This document shows positions 49,290-57,469 of a stretch of 64,000 bases of DNA, piece by piece. Origin of the DNA: Sinorhizobium meliloti 4H41 (GTDB lineage: Bacteria; Pseudomonadota; Alphaproteobacteria; Rhizobiales; Rhizobiaceae); NCBI RefSeq assembly GCF_000375585.1, contig NZ_AQWP01000002.1, positions 124,001-188,000 of the forward strand. The letters are read 5' to 3'. The translations under genes were made by a program, and so were the position numbers. A model generated the notes under the pieces. That model made no database searches and had not been told where the DNA came from. It saw nothing but the letters and a program-made list of their open reading frames with translations. How positions within the stretch are numbered: position 1 is the first letter of the stretch; each line of letters begins with the position of its first letter.

Positions 49290-50519
49290 TCACGCCTGGC
49301 CGAGACCCGCTGCCGCCACCCGCAGGTATTCGAGAAAAGTTTTCTGAAGCCTGCTCGGCAGCCAGTTCTCCCGAACGGTGACACCGATCGTCCGCGTCCG
49401 GAGCCGGCTGCGCACCTCATCGGCGACCGGAATGCAACCAAGGAGATTTTCTCTTTCCTCGATGGCGATCTGGCGGCGAGAGAGCATCGACAGCCGGTCG
49501 CTTTCCAGAATGATGGCACGCGTGAGAACGAGCGAGCTCGTCTCGATACTCGCCCTTGGCGCGTCCCCGCAACCAGCAAAAAGCGCATCGAATGCGGCCC
49601 GGATAGGCGTGCCGGGACGCTGGGCGACCCATTGCTGGGCGGCGAGCTGGTCAAGTGATGCACCCTTTCCGCTGCTGTTGAGAAGCGGGTGCCCGGATCG
49701 TCCGACCACCGCGTAGGGGTCCTCGAAAAGGGGCTCCGCCCGCAGCCCCTCGAGGTCGCTGCCCGAACGCAGCGCTCCGATCAGAATGTCGCTCGCGCCG
49801 GTGCGCAACTGCTGCGACAGAGCCTCGTAGGAGCCATCCACGACTTCCACCCGGGCATTCGGGTGCTCCGCCATAAGGGGGTTGACGGCGCGCGCAATCA
49901 ACAGGGTGCGCGCAAGCGGAAGACTTGCAATCTTGATCCGCCCTTCCATGCGCCCTTCGATTTCGCGGATTTCATCCAGCGCCTGCTCCAGTTCGGTGAG
50001 GGCCACCTGCCAGCGCATCGCGAGGCGGCGGCCTAGTGTATTCGGCGCCACGCCGGCCGGGCTGCGCATGAGGATGGCCCTGCCGATATTGGTCTGCAGG
50101 TCATGCAATGCCCGGTGCAGCGCCGCCGGCGAGCCGCCGCCGCCGCGCGCCGCCTCGGTGATGGAACCGTTGCCGGCAAGGGCGATCAGCGCCTCTATCT
50201 GCCGAAAGGTTATTCGCGCGATACATTTGGCGACCAGCGTCGGATCGCGCTGCGAACTCAAGCCGAAGAGCTCGGCCAGCGCCAATGCGATCTGGTTCTC
50301 CATGCGGCGTATCCGCGTCAAGAGAACCTCGCCGGCCGCCGTCGGCTGACTGCCGGCAGCATAGCGCGACAGGAGTTTCGCGTCGAAGCGGCGCTCGATC
50401 CCCGCGAGCGCCACCGAGACGGCGGGTTGTGAAATGTGCAGCTCGGCGGCCGCCCGGTTGAGGCTGCCCGTCTCGCAGACCTGCATGAAGACCCGCAGAT
50501 GCCGGATGTTGATATCCAT
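49290..50519 (-). CDS. LysR-family regulator with two tandem winged-helix segments
   Basis: From ATG 50519 the product has 409 residues, about 100 more than a standard LysR. Residues 4-62 are a normal LysR HTH (LRVFMQVCETGSLNRAAAEL, then HISQPAVSVAL). Residues about 103-165 repeat the pattern (FRQIEALIALAGNGSITEAA), but the recognition helix is altered (GGGGSPAALHRALHDL). The substrate-binding domain begins near residue 190 (MEGRIKIASLPLARTLLIAR). It is divergent from galB and should control the gal/tct genes in response to a carboxylic-acid intermediate. Confidence 0.87.
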   Translation of the reverse strand: MDINIRHLRVFMQVCETGSLNRAAAELHISQPAVSVALAGIERRFDAKLLSRYAAGSQPTAAGEVLLTRIRRMENQIALALAELFGLSSQRDPTLVAKCIARITFRQIEALIALAGNGSITEAARGGGGSPAALHRALHDLQTNIGRAILMRSPAGVAPNTLGRRLAMRWQVALTELEQALDEIREIEGRMEGRIKIASLPLARTLLIARAVNPLMAEHPNARVEVVDGSYEALSQQLRTGASDILIGALRSGSDLEGLRAEPLFEDPYAVVGRSGHPLLNSSGKGASLDQLAAQQWVAQRPGTPIRAAFDALFAGCGDAPRASIETSSLVLTRAIILESDRLSMLSRRQIAIEERENLLGCIPVADEVRSRLRTRTIGVTVRENWLPSRLQKTFLEYLRVAAAGLGQA

Positions 50520-50634
50520 TGCGATCAACTGTGCTCCAGAGGCAGATTCGAAAAAAACTATAGCTCGGCTCGGCTTTCGTATTAGCACCGGGGCCCTGTC
50601 GGATGCCAGTGTCCACTCCGAAGAATGAAGGAGC

Positions 50635-51375
50635 ATGGATATGCATCAAAAGACCGGACTCGTCGTCAGCGCGCATTCGGCCGACTTCGTCTGGAGGGCT
50701 GGCGGCGCGATCGCGGCCCACGCAAGACAGGGTTATGCAGTCACAGTCGTTTGCCTGTCCTTCGGCGAGCGCGGCGAGTCGGCGAAGCTCTGGAAAAAGT
50801 CGGGAATGACTCTCGAGGCCGTGAAGGCGGACCGTCGGCGCGAGGCGGAAAACGCCGCGAAGGCGCTCGGCGTTCGCGATATCCTGTTCTACGATCTCGG
50901 CGACTACCCCATGCAGGTGACGCCGGAAGCCTTCGATCGGCTGGTGGACCTCTACCGCGAAATACGCCCGGAGTTCATGCTGACGCACTCGCGGCAGGAC
51001 CCTTATAACTTCGATCACCCGATGGCGACCGAGTTCGCGCAGCATGCGCGTGTCATAGCCCAGGCGCATGGGCACAAGCCCGGCACGCCCGTACTCGGCG
51101 CCCCGCCTGTCTATCTCTTCGAGCCGCACCAGCCGGAACAATGCAATTGGAAGCCGAACTTCCTGCTCGACATCACCGATGTCTGGGAGAAGAAACTGGC
51201 GGCGATCAAGTGCATGGAGGGACAAGAGCATCTCTGGGAATATTATACCCGTGTCGCCCTCCAGCGAGGCGTCCAGGCCTCGCGCAATTCCGACTACAAG
51301 ATCACCTATGGAGAGGCCTACGAGGCCGTGTTTCCGCATGTCACCGGTACACTCGGACATGGAGCGCTGGGATGA
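50635..51375 (+). CDS. galB: 4-oxalomesaconate hydratase (GalB, PIG-L family)
   Basis: The 246-residue PIG-L/LmbE-fold protein has [20 protein letters not shown] (zinc-site AHxxD) and [20 protein letters not shown]. Its close match in pattern is Pseudomonas GalB, the zinc hydratase that turns the enol 4-carboxy-2-hydroxymuconate into 4-carboxy-4-hydroxy-2-oxoadipate (CHA). Linkage to galC and galD supports this over a deacetylase role. GAAGGAGC precedes the start. Its stop overlaps galC by ATGA. Confidence 0.86.
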
Positions 51376-52046
51376 GCGTCGTTCACCGGAATATCGAGCG
51401 GACCGGTCAGAGCCTTGTCGACGCCCTGGCGGAGTGCGGCGTTGCGACGGTCCACGAGGCGATGGGCCGCACCGGCCTGATGCAGTCCTATATGCGCCCC
51501 ATCTGGCGCGGGGCGCGCGTGGCGGGTACGGCGGTGACGGTCTCGATACCGCCTGCCGACAACTGGATGATCCATGTGGCGGTCGAGCAGTGCCGCGAAG
51601 GCGACATTCTCGTGGTCGCACCGACCTCGCTGTGCGACGCCGGCTATTTCGGCGAATTGCTTGCAACCTCACTTATGGTGCGTGGCGTGCGCGGTCTGAT
51701 CATCGAGGCCGGGGTACGGGATGTCAGTGAATTGGAGGAAATCGGCTTTCCCGTCTGGTCACGGTTCGTCTCGGCACAGGGAACGGTGAAGGCGACGCTT
51801 GGTTCGGTCAACGTGCCGATCGTCTGTGCAGGCGCCGCCGTGGCACCCGGCGATGTCGTCATCGCCGACGACGACGGGGTCATGGTCGTACCGAAAGCGC
51901 AGGCAGAACAAGCGGTCGCGGCCTCGCGCGCGAGGCTTGAGAAGGAGCGCAAGACGCGTGAGCGGCTGGCCGCCGGCGAACTGGGACTGGACATCTACGA
52001 CATGCGCGGCGCACTCGCAGCCAAAGGACTGAAATACATCGATTGA
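51372..52046 (+). CDS. galC: 4-carboxy-4-hydroxy-2-oxoadipate aldolase/oxaloacetate decarboxylase
   Basis: The 224-residue protein is of the RraA/HMG-CHA aldolase group (GalC, LigK): [40 protein letters not shown] and [20 protein letters not shown], the last with the R/D pair near the metal site. It cleaves CHA to pyruvate and oxaloacetate. Translationally coupled to galB. The known product set feeds the TCA cycle. Confidence 0.86.
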
Positions 52047-52087
52047 AGCGGGAGATGGCGCAGGAGCCACTTCCGCAGGGAGGACGA

Positions 52088-52972
52088 ATGACCACGATTG
52101 CATTCATCGGCTTCGGCGAGGCAGCGCAGTCCATCGCCGGCGGGCTTGGCGGCCGGAACGCCGCGCGGCTCGCCGCTTACGATTTGCGCTTCAACGACCC
52201 GGCTGCTTCCGACGCCCTGCGGGCAAGAGCGGCGGAACTCGGTGTCGAACCGCTCGACGACGTGGCCGGCATTGCTTCCGCGGATGTCGTGCTGTCGCTC
52301 GTCGTCGGTGCCGCGACGAAGGCCGTCGCCGCCTCGGCGGCGCCGCATCTTTCCGGCGAGGCGGTCTTCATCGACCTCAACTCCGTCGGGCCGGACACCA
52401 AGGCCCTCGCAGCCGGCGCGATCGCTACCGGGAAGGGCAGCTTCGTGGAAGGCGCCGTCATGGCGCGCGTGCCACCCTATGCCGAGAAGGTTCCGATCCT
52501 CGTTGCGGGCAAGCGTGCCGTCGAGGTGGCGGGGCGCCTGAACGCGCTCGGCATGAACCTCGAAGCGGTCGGCGATACCCCTGGCCAGGCTTCGTCGCTG
52601 AAGATGATCCGTTCGGTGATGATCAAAGGTGTCGAGGCCCTGCTGATCGAAGCTCTGTCCTCGGCGGAGCGGGCCGGCGTTACCGAGCGCATTCTTGATT
52701 CGGTCCAGGAGACCTTTCCCGGCCTCGATTGGCGTAATGTGGCCGACTATTACCTGTCCCGGACCTTCGAGCACGGCGCCCGTCGCGTGACAGAGATGAC
52801 CGAAGCAGCCGAGACGATCGAATCGCTCGGACTGAGCGCCCCCATGTCGCGGGCTGCCTGCGAGACGATCGCTGCCGCTCATGCGGCGATGAAGGATCAG
52901 GGGCTCTCCGTAAATGACGGCTATCGCGGTTTCGTACCGGTGCTCGCACGCCGCCTGGCGAAGGACAGTTGA
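52088..52972 (+). CDS. Beta-hydroxyacid-dehydrogenase-like protein with DUF1932 domain
   Basis: The 294-residue protein begins TTIAFIGFGEAAQSIAGGLG, a Rossmann NAD(P) motif, as in 6-phosphogluconate/3-hydroxyisobutyrate dehydrogenases, and ends in a DUF1932 helical domain (DSVQETFPGLDWRNVADYYL, then SRTFEHGARRVTEMTE). It has GGGAGGACGA before its ATG. Its place between galC and tctA suggests it oxidises or reduces an intermediate or precursor of the tricarboxylate pathway. It is not of the LigC (Gfo/Idh) type, so its reaction is open. Confidence 0.8.
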   Translation: MTTIAFIGFGEAAQSIAGGLGGRNAARLAAYDLRFNDPAASDALRARAAELGVEPLDDVAGIASADVVLSLVVGAATKAVAASAAPHLSGEAVFIDLNSVGPDTKALAAGAIATGKGSFVEGAVMARVPPYAEKVPILVAGKRAVEVAGRLNALGMNLEAVGDTPGQASSLKMIRSVMIKGVEALLIEALSSAERAGVTERILDSVQETFPGLDWRNVADYYLSRTFEHGARRVTEMTEAAETIESLGLSAPMSRAACETIAAAHAAMKDQGLSVNDGYRGFVPVLARRLAKDS

Positions 52973-52973
52973 G

Positions 52974-54518
52974 ATGGACGGTATCTTACAGTCGCTCGGC
53001 GTCATCTTCAGCCTTTCCGGCGTTGCCGTACTCGTCACCGGGGCCCTGCTCGGGATCGTCATCGGCGCCCTGCCCGGACTTGGCCCGTCGATCGGATTGA
53101 GCCTGCTCATCCCGTTCACCTACAATCTCGGCCCCGAGCTCAGCATGCTGCTGATGATCTCGCTCTATACCTCAGCCGAATATGGCGGCTCTATCAGCGC
53201 TATCCTCCTGTCGACCCCGGGCACGGCCGCCGCTGCGGCGACCGCGATCGACGGCTATTCCATGGCTCGACAGGGCAAGGCGAACGAGGCGATCGCGATT
53301 TCGCTGACTGCCTCCACCGTCGGCGGGGTTCTCGGCGGGCTTGCGCTGCTGCTGCTGGCCATGCCGCTCGCCTCGCTGGCGTTGAAATTCGGACCGGCCG
53401 GGTACTTCGCCGTCGGCGTGTTCGGCCTGAGCTCGGTCGCGGCACTGTCCGGTGGTTCGCTGGTCAAGGGTCTTGCCTGTGCCGCCTTCGGTCTTGCGCT
53501 GGCGACGGTGGGCATAGATCCGATCGCCGGCACGCCGCGCTTCACCTTCGGACTTTTCCAGCTCTATGAGGGCGTACCGTTTCTGGCGGCACTCATCGGC
53601 CTCTTCGCCGTGTCGGAAGCGCTCGCGATGGTCGAGAGCCGCGTGGTGTCGGCGCCGTCCATCAAGGACAAGGTCGGCCACGTCTTCATGTCAGCGGCGC
53701 TGTGGAAGGAAACCTGGCGCTCCATGCTCTCCGGTTCGGCCATAGGCACCGTGCTCGGAATTCTTCCCGGTGTCGGCGGCAACATCGCGTGCTGGGTCGC
53801 CCGCGATTATGCCCGCGCCCGGGACCGTCATCCCGAAGAGTTCGGCAATGGCTCCGCAAACGGCATCGCGGCACCTGAAGCCGCCAACAACGCCACAGTC
53901 GGCGGCGCACTCGTACCCCTCCTTGCGCTCGGTGTTCCCGGTTCCCCGACGACCGCGATCATGGTCGGCGCACTCATCATGCACGGTCTGCATCCCGGTC
54001 CGCAGCTCTTCAACGAGGCGCCGTCACTGGTCTATGCGATCCTTTTCGGAACGATCATCGCGTCGCTGGTGCAATATGCCGCGGGCTCTCTTTTCCTGCC
54101 GCTCATGGCCCGGGTGATGCGGCTGCCCGACGCGGTGATCGCCGTCGGCATCATGGCCTTTGCCGTTCTCGGCGCCTTCGCCATCCGCAACCTGATGTTC
54201 GACGTCTACCTGATGCTCGGCTTCGGAGTCGTCGGCTATCTCATGAAGAAGCTCCGCTTCCCGGTCGCCCCCGTCATTCTGGCTATGGTACTCGGCTATC
54301 TGGTGGAGTCGAACTATCGTACCGCGCTCGTGTCCTCGCAAGGCGACTACACGATCTTCGTCACCGATCCGATCAGCCTGATCTTCCTCATCCTGAGCCT
54401 CGTCAGCCTGCTGACGCCGCTTTGGCGACGGATCCAGGCGCGCCGCGCCAGTGCGCGGACCGAAGAAACGCGGACTGCACTGTCCGTTGAAAGCATCCAA
54501 CTGGAGGAGAAGACATGA
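52974..54518 (+). CDS. tctA: Tripartite tricarboxylate transporter, large permease TctA
   Basis: The 514-residue protein has about 10-12 membrane segments and TctA signatures: GIVIGALPGLGPSIGLSLLI, STPGTAAAAATAIDGYSMAR and the second repeat GILPGVGGNIACWVARDYA and GVPGSPTTAIMVGALIMHGL. It is the main transport subunit of a secondary, binding-protein-dependent tricarboxylate importer. Starts 1 base after the dehydrogenase stop. Confidence 0.93.
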   Translation: MDGILQSLGVIFSLSGVAVLVTGALLGIVIGALPGLGPSIGLSLLIPFTYNLGPELSMLLMISLYTSAEYGGSISAILLSTPGTAAAAATAIDGYSMARQGKANEAIAISLTASTVGGVLGGLALLLLAMPLASLALKFGPAGYFAVGVFGLSSVAALSGGSLVKGLACAAFGLALATVGIDPIAGTPRFTFGLFQLYEGVPFLAALIGLFAVSEALAMVESRVVSAPSIKDKVGHVFMSAALWKETWRSMLSGSAIGTVLGILPGVGGNIACWVARDYARARDRHPEEFGNGSANGIAAPEAANNATVGGALVPLLALGVPGSPTTAIMVGALIMHGLHPGPQLFNEAPSLVYAILFGTIIASLVQYAAGSLFLPLMARVMRLPDAVIAVGIMAFAVLGAFAIRNLMFDVYLMLGFGVVGYLMKKLRFPVAPVILAMVLGYLVESNYRTALVSSQGDYTIFVTDPISLIFLILSLVSLLTPLWRRIQARRASARTEETRTALSVESIQLEEKT

Positions 54519-55504
54519 GTATTACAAGAAGAACGTTCGGCGCGCGCATGGCAGGCGCGGCTGTGGGGCTGGCCGTCGTCCTGTCGGGATTTGCAGCACC
54601 GGCGAACTCCCTCGCCGCGGAATTTCCGGAAAAGCCGGTGACGCTGGTGGTTTGGGCGGGTGCCGGGGGAGCGCTCGACACTTACGGCCGCAAGCTCGCC
54701 GAACTCCTGGAAAAGGAGGCAGGGTGGACGGTGAAAGTGGACAACAGGCCGGGCGGCAGCGGCGCCGTCGGCGTCTCGCAGATCATGACGCAGCCGGCCG
54801 ACGGCTACAACATCCTCGTCCTCACCGGGACACTGACCTTCGGCATCGCCCAAGGCCTCATTCCCTTCGAACTCGAGGATTTCCGCCTGCTTCGGGCCAT
54901 GCAATCGGAGCCGTCTTCGCTTGCGGTGCTTTCCGACAGCCAATTCAAGACCGTCGACGATTTCATCGGATACATGAAGGACAATCCGAACGGCCTGAAA
55001 GTCGGCGGCCATGCGCCCGGAGGCTTTCATCAGTACATGCTGTACCAGCTCATGACGAAGGGCGGCTTCGAAAGCGGCTGGATCCCGCATGACGCGTCGG
55101 GCAAGGTGACGCTCGGCCTTCTCGGCAAGCACCTCGATGCTGCCATGATGACGCCATCGACCGGCCTTGCGCAGGTCAAAGGCGGCGAAATCAAGCTGCT
55201 TGGCGTTTCGACCGACAAGCGTAGCGCATTCCTGCCCCACGTACCGACGTTTAAAGAGCAGGGCTACGACATCGAGGGGGCGGTCTGGCGCGGTATCGCG
55301 GTAAAGGCGGGAACACCCGACGACACCGTCGGCGCCATCCAGGCTGCAGTGGACAAAGTGACTGCATCCGAGGACTGGAAGAAGTTCCAGACCGAGCAGT
55401 TCCAGGATAGCCCCGACTGGAAGGAAGAGGATTTCACCAAACGGGCGCAGAGCGATCTCGCCAACCAGGTCGAATTCCTCAAGGCCAACGGATACGTCGA
55501 ATGA
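54515..55504 (+). CDS. tctC: Tripartite tricarboxylate transporter, binding protein TctC
   Basis: The 329-residue protein has a signal with twin arginines (MSITRRTFGARMAG, hydrophobic run, ASAA-type end near LAAEFPEK). The mature part is the Bug/TctC fold (PVTLVVWAGAGGALDTYGRK, VKVDNRPGGSGAVGVSQI). It should capture the tricarboxylate in the periplasm. Overlaps tctA by ATGA, and tctB by ATGA. The order A-C-B differs from the classic C-B-A. Confidence 0.92.
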   Translation: MSITRRTFGARMAGAAVGLAVVLSGFAAPANSLAAEFPEKPVTLVVWAGAGGALDTYGRKLAELLEKEAGWTVKVDNRPGGSGAVGVSQIMTQPADGYNILVLTGTLTFGIAQGLIPFELEDFRLLRAMQSEPSSLAVLSDSQFKTVDDFIGYMKDNPNGLKVGGHAPGGFHQYMLYQLMTKGGFESGWIPHDASGKVTLGLLGKHLDAAMMTPSTGLAQVKGGEIKLLGVSTDKRSAFLPHVPTFKEQGYDIEGAVWRGIAVKAGTPDDTVGAIQAAVDKVTASEDWKKFQTEQFQDSPDWKEEDFTKRAQSDLANQVEFLKANGYVE

Positions 55505-56007
55505 GCGGTCACGCATCGGGTGCTCCGGAACATGACCTCTCCGCCGGGCACGGCGGGGAGGCACCGCACGGGCACTATTGGCAAAACCTCGTCGCGGCTC
55601 TTGTGTGCATCGGCTGGAACGCGGGCTTCCTGCTGTTGAGCCTCGGTCTGCCGGCTGGACATTCACGAGGCGATGTCGGGCCGGGTTCGCTGCCCATTCA
55701 GGTTGCTGTCTTCGGTACGGCGGTGTCGGCCGTCTATCTCGTTCAGGTCCTGAGGGGCGTCGATCTCGGCGGAACGCACGGCAGGCTCGACATTGCGCGC
55801 GTCAGCGGCTTGATGGCCCTCTTCGTCGCCGTGTGTCTCGGCGCGAACTGGATGGGGCTGGCTCTTTGCCTCGGAATCGGCGCGGGCGTGGCGACGCTGC
55901 TCTTTCCGGGCGAGAAGCCGCTCGTCCGAGCCGCAGCAACCGGGGCCGGCTTCTGGGCGATCGCCTATCTGGTATTCGGCAAGCTGCTCGCGCTTCCTCT
56001 TCCTTGA
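55501..56007 (+). CDS. tctB: Tripartite tricarboxylate transporter, small permease TctB
   Basis: The 168-residue protein has four membrane segments (NLVAALVCIGWNAGFLLLSL, and around 60-80, 105-125, 140-160) typical of TctB. His-rich cytosolic start (HASGAPEHDLSAGHG). It completes the TctABC system. Confidence 0.85.
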   Translation: MSGHASGAPEHDLSAGHGGEAPHGHYWQNLVAALVCIGWNAGFLLLSLGLPAGHSRGDVGPGSLPIQVAVFGTAVSAVYLVQVLRGVDLGGTHGRLDIARVSGLMALFVAVCLGANWMGLALCLGIGAGVATLLFPGEKPLVRAAATGAGFWAIAYLVFGKLLALPLP

Positions 56008-56030
56008 AACGGCCTGACAGGAGTGAACAC

Positions 56031-57089
56031 ATGACGCCAGACGGTATCGCGTGCATGATGATGAGAGGCGGCACGTCGAAAGGCGCCTATTTTCTCGCCG
56101 ACGATCTTCCGACCGACGCTGGAGAGCGCAACCGGCTCCTGCTGCGCATCATGGGGTCGCCCGACCCGCGCCAGATCGACGGCATAGGAGGGGCCGATCC
56201 GCTGACAAGCAAAGTAGCCGTCGTCCGCGCCTCGGCTCGGCCCGGTTTCGACGTAGATTTTCTCTTTCTCCAGGTCTTCGTCGATCAGGCACTGGTAAGC
56301 GACAGCCAGAATTGCGGCAATATCCTTGCCGGTGTCGGCGCTTTTGCCGTCGAGCGCGGGCTGGTCGAAGCCGCGGAAGGCGAAACCGCCATCCGCATCT
56401 ACATGGAGAACACGTCCCAGTCTGCTGTCGCGCGCATCCGCACCGCGAAAGGCCGACCCGTCTATACGGGCGACGCGTCGATCGACGGGGTGCCGACTCC
56501 CGCCGCCCCCGTCTATCTGACCTTCACGGACGCCGCCGGATCAAGCTGCGGCGCATTGCTGCCGACCGGCTCGGCCGTAAACGAGATCGAGGGTGTTGCC
56601 TGCACGCTGATCGACAACGGAATGCCGGTCGTGGTCATGCGGGCGGCGGATTTCGGCCTGACGGGATATGAGAGCCGCGAAGAGCTCGAGGCGAACGAGG
56701 CTGTCAAGGCGCGTATCGAGCGCATCCGCCTCGCCGCAGGACCGCTGATGAATTTGGGCGACGTCACGAAAAAGTCGGTCCCCAAGATGACCTTGGTCGC
56801 CCTTCCGGTGAATGGCGGCGCCATCATGACCCGCAGCCTCATTCCCCACCGCGTGCATGCTTCGATCGGCGTCTTTGGCGCGCTCAGCGTGGCCACGGCG
56901 TGCCTGCTGCCAAACAGTCCCGCAGCGTCCCTCGCCACCTTGCCGGAGGGCGAGGAAAAAACCCTGGCCGTCGAGCACCCGACGGGCCGCATGGAAATCC
57001 TGCTTCGGCTCGACAACGCCGGCAGCGTGGAGGAATGCTCGTTTCTACGAACCGCGCGAAAACTCTTCGATGGTCGCGTCTTCGCATGA
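56031..57089 (+). CDS. galD: 4-oxalomesaconate tautomerase (PrpF superfamily)
   Basis: The 352-residue protein has the PrpF/GalD signatures CMMMRGGTSKGAYF, IDGIGGADPLTSKVAVV and SDSQNCGNILAGVGAFA. GalD tautomerises keto 4-oxalomesaconate to the enol that GalB hydrates. Association with galB and galC makes the OMA tautomerase role more likely than aconitate isomerisation. ACAGGAGTG precedes the ATG. Last gene of the cluster. Confidence 0.87.
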   Translation: MTPDGIACMMMRGGTSKGAYFLADDLPTDAGERNRLLLRIMGSPDPRQIDGIGGADPLTSKVAVVRASARPGFDVDFLFLQVFVDQALVSDSQNCGNILAGVGAFAVERGLVEAAEGETAIRIYMENTSQSAVARIRTAKGRPVYTGDASIDGVPTPAAPVYLTFTDAAGSSCGALLPTGSAVNEIEGVACTLIDNGMPVVVMRAADFGLTGYESREELEANEAVKARIERIRLAAGPLMNLGDVTKKSVPKMTLVALPVNGGAIMTRSLIPHRVHASIGVFGALSVATACLLPNSPAASLATLPEGEEKTLAVEHPTGRMEILLRLDNAGSVEECSFLRTARKLFDGRVFA

Positions 57090-57115
57090 CAGCGGGGGCG
57101 CCGCTCAAAGAAACA

Positions 57116-57137
57116 CCGCCCGGTCTCTGCCGGGCGG
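57116..57137. terminator. Hairpin between galD and the zeta-subunit gene
   Basis: CCGCCCGG and CCGGGCGG with a 6-base loop. On the minus strand TGTTTCTTT follows, so it best ends the zeta-subunit transcript, and may also stop the gal operon. Confidence 0.6.
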
Positions 57138-57154
57138 CGGCATGCAGGTGTCGT

Positions 57155-57469
57155 TTAGTTTTTCTGTAGCTGTGCAACCGCTTCCGAGAGCAATTCAATC
57201 ATGCGGACGCGAATGTCGTCCTCGGATATTGCAACGCCAGCCGCGTCGAAATCGGCCTTGATCTTGCGCACGACGTCCTCGTGCCCGGCCTCTTCGAAAT
57301 CCGCGGCAACGATCTCGCTCGCATAGGCTTCCGGGTCGGACTTGGCGAGAAGACCGGCGGCCCAAAGGCCAAGCAGTTTGTTGCGGCGGGCGGTGGCCTT
57401 GAACCTCAATTCCTCGTCCAACGCGAACTTCGCCTCGAAAGCCTTCTCGCGGTCCTGCATCGTCGTCAT
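57155..57469 (-). CDS. F1-ATPase inhibitor zeta subunit (DUF1476)
   Basis: The 104-residue protein (MTTMQDREKAFEAKFALDEE) has the DUF1476 pattern with helices ARRNKLLGLWAAGLL and DFEEAGHEDVVRKIKADFDA. In Paracoccus the family member zeta blocks reverse rotation of F1-ATPase. Start at ATG 57469, following GGGAGATCGATTG. It lies apart from any atp genes and is divergent from purC. Confidence 0.86.
   Translation of the reverse strand: MTTMQDREKAFEAKFALDEELRFKATARRNKLLGLWAAGLLAKSDPEAYASEIVAADFEEAGHEDVVRKIKADFDAAGVAISEDDIRVRMIELLSEAVAQLQKN

Follow-up and report, generated by a model that had tools for sequence, protein, structure and literature searches.

The lower pathway from 4-oxalomesaconate (OMA) is described from the gal cluster of Pseudomonas putida KT2440 and from the lig/pmd clusters for protocatechuate 4,5-cleavage. 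Here we analyse a cluster at 49290-57089 of a 64,000 nt stretch of Sinorhizobium meliloti 4H41 (NZ_AQWP01000002.1, positions 124,001-188,000; hereafter the window), in which the genes of this pathway stand together with a DUF1932 dehydrogenase gene and a TctABC importer. As in the P. putida cluster, homologues of galB, galC and galD are present and a divergent LysR-type regulator gene lies next to galB; in contrast to it, the window operon contains neither the galA dioxygenase gene nor galT or galP, has tctABC and DUF1932, and is accompanied by a regulator with two helix-turn-helix (HTH) stretches. The lower steps from OMA are shared with the lig/pmd clusters, and LigC and DUF1932 occur together in 8 of 26 sampled alphaproteobacterial galC loci, but the window's genome has no member of the LigB family and no close LigI was found in it. 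A further group of alphaproteobacterial clusters (L065, L087, L093 and others of the loci sampled below) has galB, galC, galD, DUF1932 and a regulator of the same LysR type in common with the window; those clusters encode a type I extradiol enzyme, in some cases together with a tripartite ATP-independent periplasmic (TRAP) importer, whereas the window operon has neither. Tripartite tricarboxylate transporters (TTT; TctCBA), finally, take up carboxylates, and the window encodes all three subunits with unusual partner genes.

Gene content of the operon

The gene set of the lower OMA pathway and a complete TctABC importer are confirmed to stand in one operon. The order, taken from Pfam and NCBIfam matches and open reading frame coordinates, is LysR / galB-galC-DUF1932-tctA-tctC-tctB-galD with the regulator gene divergent, and the gaps from galB to galD (-4, 41, 1, -4, -4 and 23 bases) define a single tight operon. 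Every gene that a sequence-only reading had placed in the cluster was found where it had been claimed, by family models and by solved relatives.

All operon genes lie on the plus strand. GalC (51372-52046) is a 4-carboxy-4-hydroxy-2-oxoadipate (CHA) aldolase by two equivalog models, NF006731 (376.7 bits, cut-off 179) and TIGR02798 (356.3 bits, cut-off 304.5); it matches the solved CHA aldolase 3noj at 5.5e-85, with the aligned Gly-Val-Arg-Asp stretch preserved. GalD (56031-57089) is an OMA tautomerase/isomerase by the equivalog NF033377 (511.8 bits against 440) and by the solved isomerase 6p3j (4e-149). For GalB (50635-51375), a PIG-L family protein, no NCBIfam model exceeded its cut-off, and its identity as OMA (enol) hydratase comes from its phmmer match to the solved P. 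putida enzyme 5cgz (4e-103). The lower pathway is complete with these three. The transporter consists of the large membrane subunit TctA (52974-54518; PF01970, 486.5 bits), the periplasmic solute-binding protein TctC (54515-55504; PF03401, 124.1 bits; nearest solved structure 25hk, 1.2e-52) and the small membrane subunit TctB (55501-56007; PF07331, 39.1 bits against 29.1), so that all three TTT components are recognized by Pfam. The remaining gene (52088-52972) encodes a 6-phosphogluconate dehydrogenase-like protein that belongs to the DUF1932 family by its PF09130 domain (65.1 bits against 25) and its invariant Lys172.

We tentatively read the cluster, with a confidence a little short of even, as a self-contained operon for the uptake and catabolism of a non-aromatic polycarboxylate. 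The acid would be bound by periplasmic TctC and carried inward by TctAB, after which it would be converted to OMA or CHA, perhaps by entering through the DUF1932 dehydrogenase as the sequence-only reading had proposed. Strong homology indicates that GalD would then turn the keto form of OMA into the enol, that GalB would hydrate the enol to CHA and that GalC would cleave CHA to pyruvate and oxaloacetate. The LysR-type regulator may sense OMA or CHA and switch on the divergent operon, by analogy with P. putida GalR.

Ring-opening enzymes in the genome and among relatives

The own genome (6.79 Mb, 46 contigs, 99.99 % complete) was searched in full for PF02900, the family to which GalA and LigB owe their catalytic activity. 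It gave no match, whereas 4 of the 14 control genomes did, and neither a GalA-type gallate dioxygenase nor a LigAB dioxygenase was found in this way. Type I extradiol enzymes, sought with queries from two relatives, were likewise without a match, one such search being positive in 10 of 22 genomes. We rejected an assembly gap as the cause of the missing dioxygenase because of the completeness of the genome and because most relatives tested show the same pattern. A gallate or protocatechuate 4,5-dioxygenase elsewhere in the genome, the finding that the sequence-only reading had regarded as fatal to it, was not found by the PF02900 search, which does not cover ligC. However, an intradiol protocatechuate 3,4-dioxygenase, PcaHG, is present in the genome. 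Since this enzyme is able to act on gallate, the absence of a ring-cleavage enzyme can be claimed only for the cluster and for the usual gallate and protocatechuate-4,5 kinds. A third intradiol-type (Dioxygenase_C) match lies apart from PcaHG at G000:C3:121659-122018 (L139).

From a scan with the DUF1932 protein, the 80 best of 144 relatives were taken as named loci (L034-L113) and labelled with profiles built from their proteins. The window-type arrangement galB-galC-DUF1932-galD was found in 14 of them (L034-L046 and L048), 12 with tctABC. A protein of about 320 residues, nearest to the NCBIfam model for catechol 2,3-dioxygenase, occurs in 42 of the 80 loci; the cut-off of that model is 320.2 bits, and the three such proteins tested gave 305.7, 321.7 and 336.1. 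LigB is found in five of the 80. Among the 53 loci with any gal-type match, a ring-opener lies within the fetched stretch in 30 and none in 23; the latter include L050 and L052, with weak galC-like matches only, L063, with a galD-like match only, and L060, which carries an extradiol gene just beyond the end of its stretch. Wherever a strong TRAP binding protein was seen, in six loci, the extradiol enzyme accompanies it, within the stretch in five of them and just beyond it in L060.

Whole-genome searches covered 13 genomes with the window-type operon, the host of L036 being excluded. PF02900 matched in two of them, and both proteins come closest to the model for 4,5-DOPA dioxygenase without reaching its cut-off of 233 bits (scores 113.8 and 125.9). 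The extradiol enzyme is present at 71-83 % identity in three (G400, G407 and G408), three more showing only 30 %; at an identity of at least 59 % it is absent from 10 of the 13. L044 and L045, the pair of loci without tctABC, belong to G407 and G408 and sit on different branches of the DUF1932 tree. The extradiol enzyme thus occurs in 1 of the 11 genomes with tctABC and in both of the two that lack it (Fisher p 0.038, uncorrected for kinship). Among close relatives, then, tctABC tends to substitute for the extradiol ring-opener, a pattern that is suggestive but not proof, and it favours TctABC as a replacement entry point for the pathway. Within the genus, the window's type of DUF1932 protein was found in 3 of 33 genomes (the own one, one of the same species and one that is 70 % complete), and a fourth genome holds two DUF1932 copies at 54-56 %; PF02900 matched in 9 of the 33 and in none of these four.

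Between galC and galB of L065, L087, L093, L098, L106, L149, L152 and others stands the gene for a type I (glyoxalase-fold) extradiol dioxygenase. Such enzymes, found next to galBC(D)-DUF1932 in numerous Alphaproteobacteria, are candidate ring-openers of an alternative kind for the OMA pathway.

The DUF1932 dehydrogenase, regulation and selection

The window's DUF1932 protein barely differs in sequence from 4ezb, a solved, uncharacterised protein that we take to be from S. meliloti 1021; the structure predicted for the window's protein is confident, with a mean pLDDT (predicted local distance difference test) of 95.3. In a tree and alignment of 97 rows (15 window-type, three of L047 and L176, 79 others), the window-type rows form one set (support 99/92) with its closest relatives in L047 and L176. 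Nine positions are fixed in the 15 rows and rare in the 79 others, and at most of them the window's state is also seen in the L047/L176 rows (V73 in two of the three, G74, Y222, T226 and V234 in all three, T235 in two and H265 in one). Lys172, presumably the catalytic residue, as well as Arg175, Lys180, Arg225, His229 and Arg232 are invariant throughout the alignment, and such basic residues would suit a polycarboxylate. Directly after the DUF1932 gene, L047 has a D-2-hydroxyacid dehydrogenase gene, as does L176 after one of its two copies; in L047 this gene is followed by a DAO-type flavin adenine dinucleotide (FAD) oxidoreductase by Pfam, the third gene of L176 being similar by eye. We read the window's protein as a class of dehydrogenase whose substrate probably differs from that of the ring-opening clusters.

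Sampling by galC covered 27 of 385 genomes of the class, the own one included, and 26 other loci were fetched. A ring-opener lies within the fetched stretch in 17 of these, and none holds both tctA and tctC at the thresholds used. DUF1932 is present in 15 of the 26, eight of them with LigC, and is hence a general companion of the pathway. Because it is so widespread, ring-opening clusters included, it says nothing by itself about uptake, and the tie between DUF1932 and uptake drawn by the sequence-only reading was not borne out: the gene accompanies LigABC and extradiol clusters as well. DUF1932 as a plain stand-in for LigC was rejected, since LigC is encoded as well in 8 of the 15 DUF1932 loci of this sample. 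In L156, L157 and L158, galB-galC-galD lies beside genes that by eye resemble parts of a branched-chain-type ATP-binding cassette (ABC) importer, with no ring-opener match in the stretch.

Tricarballylate or 2-hydroxyacid dehydrogenases adjoin a few related clusters whose locus shows no ring-opener, in line with the proposed uptake. In L096, which has no ring-opener in its stretch, galDCB-DUF1932-LysR adjoins genes for TcuA (665.4 bits, cut-off 369) and TcuB (TIGR02484, 348.4 over 246.6, yet below the NF011607 cut-off); its host genome gave no extradiol match, PF02900 not being searched there. These tricarballylate dehydrogenase genes, tcuA and tcuB, lie at 4698-7200 of L096, directly beside galD, and similar TcuAB-like genes lie near DUF1932 in L094, around 2716-5200. 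A YdiJ-like 2-hydroxyglutarate dehydrogenase, under its equivalog cut-off, is encoded near the regulator in L057 and in L084, the latter with an extradiol enzyme. L067 encodes an isocitrate/isopropylmalate-type dehydrogenase (PF00180) and a second protein of OMA tautomerase type (463.8 bits over 440). In both L053 and L067, a second tautomerase-type gene, a thiamine diphosphate enzyme and a D-2-hydroxyacid dehydrogenase stand beside galDCB-DUF1932, the families having been tested on the L067 proteins. All of these are a handful among many loci and offer hints only.

The LysR-type regulator (49290-50519, minus strand, 409 aa) has two HTH_1 stretches preceding a single substrate domain, and 22 clustered relatives have a median called length of 410. 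The open frame extends to 50636, and the start codon was set where it resembles those of LysR proteins. The nearest curated model, PcaQ, scored 175.6 bits, far below its cut-off of 303.8. Alignment of the 115-base divergent promoter with 13 relatives revealed a putative promoter/operator block at 50545-50586 (GATTCG, an A-run, CTATA ... GCTTTCGTATTAGC), which is clear, with few substitutions, in 12 of the 13 and poor in L046. No inverted repeats were found in the divergent promoter. For P. putida GalR, OMA is reported as the likely effector (PMC9942251). If the window's regulator senses the same compound, OMA or a precursor would have to come from outside or arise without the usual ring-openers.

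The ratio of non-synonymous to synonymous differences (pN/pS) is 0.05-0.49 against L036, L037, L039 and L048 (LysR unmeasured for L036) and 0.17-0.64 against L046. These values indicate purifying selection and therefore a maintained operon, and on the same ground we rejected a decayed former gallate cluster. At 1715-6539 of L036, from a metagenome-assembled genome, tctA, tctC and tctB diverge from the window by 0.15-0.21 at silent sites (dS) and galB and galC by over 1.0, a contrast that reflects either recombination or a chimeric bin.

The operon is flanked by purine genes named by eye from their translations, purB upstream and purC downstream. Two terminator-like sites lie 3' of galD at 57114-57155, a 10-pair stem (57139-57114) with its T-run on the minus strand and, less strong, an 8-pair stem on the plus strand (57136-57155); it is their placement that supports them, since the region contains five such sites against a shuffled mean of 5.2.

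Possible sources of OMA and biological meaning

Several observations weigh against uptake of a non-aromatic polycarboxylate. No environmental acid is known to us from which a single oxidation would give OMA or CHA, and PcaHG is encoded in the genome. The p value given above ignores kinship and depends on two genomes without tctABC. G400 holds both tctABC and the extradiol enzyme. The DUF1932 gene is a general companion of the pathway, as described above, and TcuAB or hydroxyacid-enzyme neighbours occur in few loci. L057 has tctABC-DUF1932-LysR, yet its host genome has no galB match (galC and galD not searched there); PF02900, extradiol and PF00775 matches were also absent from that genome. In two loci, L084 and, judged by contig position, L060, orthologous tctABC (TctC 72-78 %) has the extradiol enzyme as a neighbour, and TctABC may therefore import the aromatic substrate.

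This last point leads to the strongest of the alternatives, namely that an aromatic acid, gallate for instance, enters through TctABC and that an unrecognised or unlinked ring-opener elsewhere in the genome makes OMA. In addition to L084 and L060, the solved terephthalate-binding relatives 8hk9-8hkb demonstrate that TTT proteins can bind aromatic acids, and ring-openers are found in most of the sampled galC loci (17 of 26). However, the own genome has neither a PF02900 nor an extradiol match, 10 of the 13 relatives lack the extradiol enzyme at the identity given above, and all six strong-TRAP loci have that enzyme when most tctABC loci do not. We consider this explanation unlikely.

Still less probable, in our view, although it leads the alternatives that rely on a known enzyme, is that the intradiol PcaHG opens gallate, in which C3-C4 and C4-C5 are equivalent, to OMA or to the lactone 2-pyrone-4,6-dicarboxylate (PDC) for use by the operon. 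PcaHG of P. putida and, as a minor activity, that of Acinetobacter baylyi are reported to convert gallate to PDC (PMC12481942). The genes are present in the own genome, but PF00775, the intradiol family, matched in 23 of 25 genomes searched, including 13 of 13 with the operon type, and because PcaHG is so common in the group its presence is weak evidence. The reported product, PDC, would also require LigI. When both strands were compared, the nearest of six own amidohydrolases had 31-36 % identity to LigI-like proteins of relatives and sits in another cluster; we rejected this candidate (L117) as the own LigI for its low identity and because its neighbours resemble a sugar-acid cluster by eye. 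The PcaHG explanation is weakened by this lack of a close LigI, and it leaves DUF1932 and the conserved importer unexplained.

Import of PDC itself, followed by hydrolysis to OMA, appears improbable to a greater degree. A LigI-like gene adjoins the operon in L046, whose genome has no PF02900 or extradiol match, and another adjoins tctABC in L084, but no close LigI was found in the own genome or in the other window-type stretches fetched (their whole genomes not searched). The least probable alternative, which we give very little weight, is that the operon serves another branched hydroxy-keto acid, for instance one of the 4-hydroxy-4-methyl-2-oxoglutarate (HMG) type, and that the galB and galD names mislead: the GalC enzyme family also cleaves HMG (PMC5065237), but GalB and GalD match OMA enzymes closely and GalD exceeds its equivalog cut-off.

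Returning to uptake of a non-aromatic polycarboxylate, we find the sequence-only reading partly supported. Its proposal that a tricarboxylate is taken up directly gains from the absence of galA- or ligB-family matches in the own genome, from the scarcity of PF02900 matches in the 13 related genomes and from the tendency of tctABC to replace the extradiol ring-opener; its choice of a tricarboxylate does not follow from the transporter family. TTT/TctC-type proteins are reported to bind citrate, dicarboxylates, amino acids or nicotinate (PMC5812351), and with ligands so varied the TctC name is no guide to the solute. Among the open-licence matches listed, judged by titles and the starts of abstracts, there was no report of the operon or of OMA, CHA or PDC uptake by a TTT system; the matches on DUF1932, on PDC uptake and on this operon in Sinorhizobium likewise contained nothing about it.

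With more reserve than for the operon itself, we suggest that the lower OMA pathway may be more than the last part of aromatic breakdown: in rhizobia it may stand by itself and serve an aliphatic polycarboxylate brought in from outside, a DUF1932 protein from a specificity class of its own acting as entry dehydrogenase, and importer and ring-opener may have been exchanged more than once. The presence of galBCD readily suggests that gallate or protocatechuate is used, and this can mislead if the operon feeds on an acid that is already open. If the reading is true, an unknown soil or root carbon source and its importer would be there to be discovered, and because this group of organisms is genetically tractable, the substrate can be sought with simple growth and binding tests.

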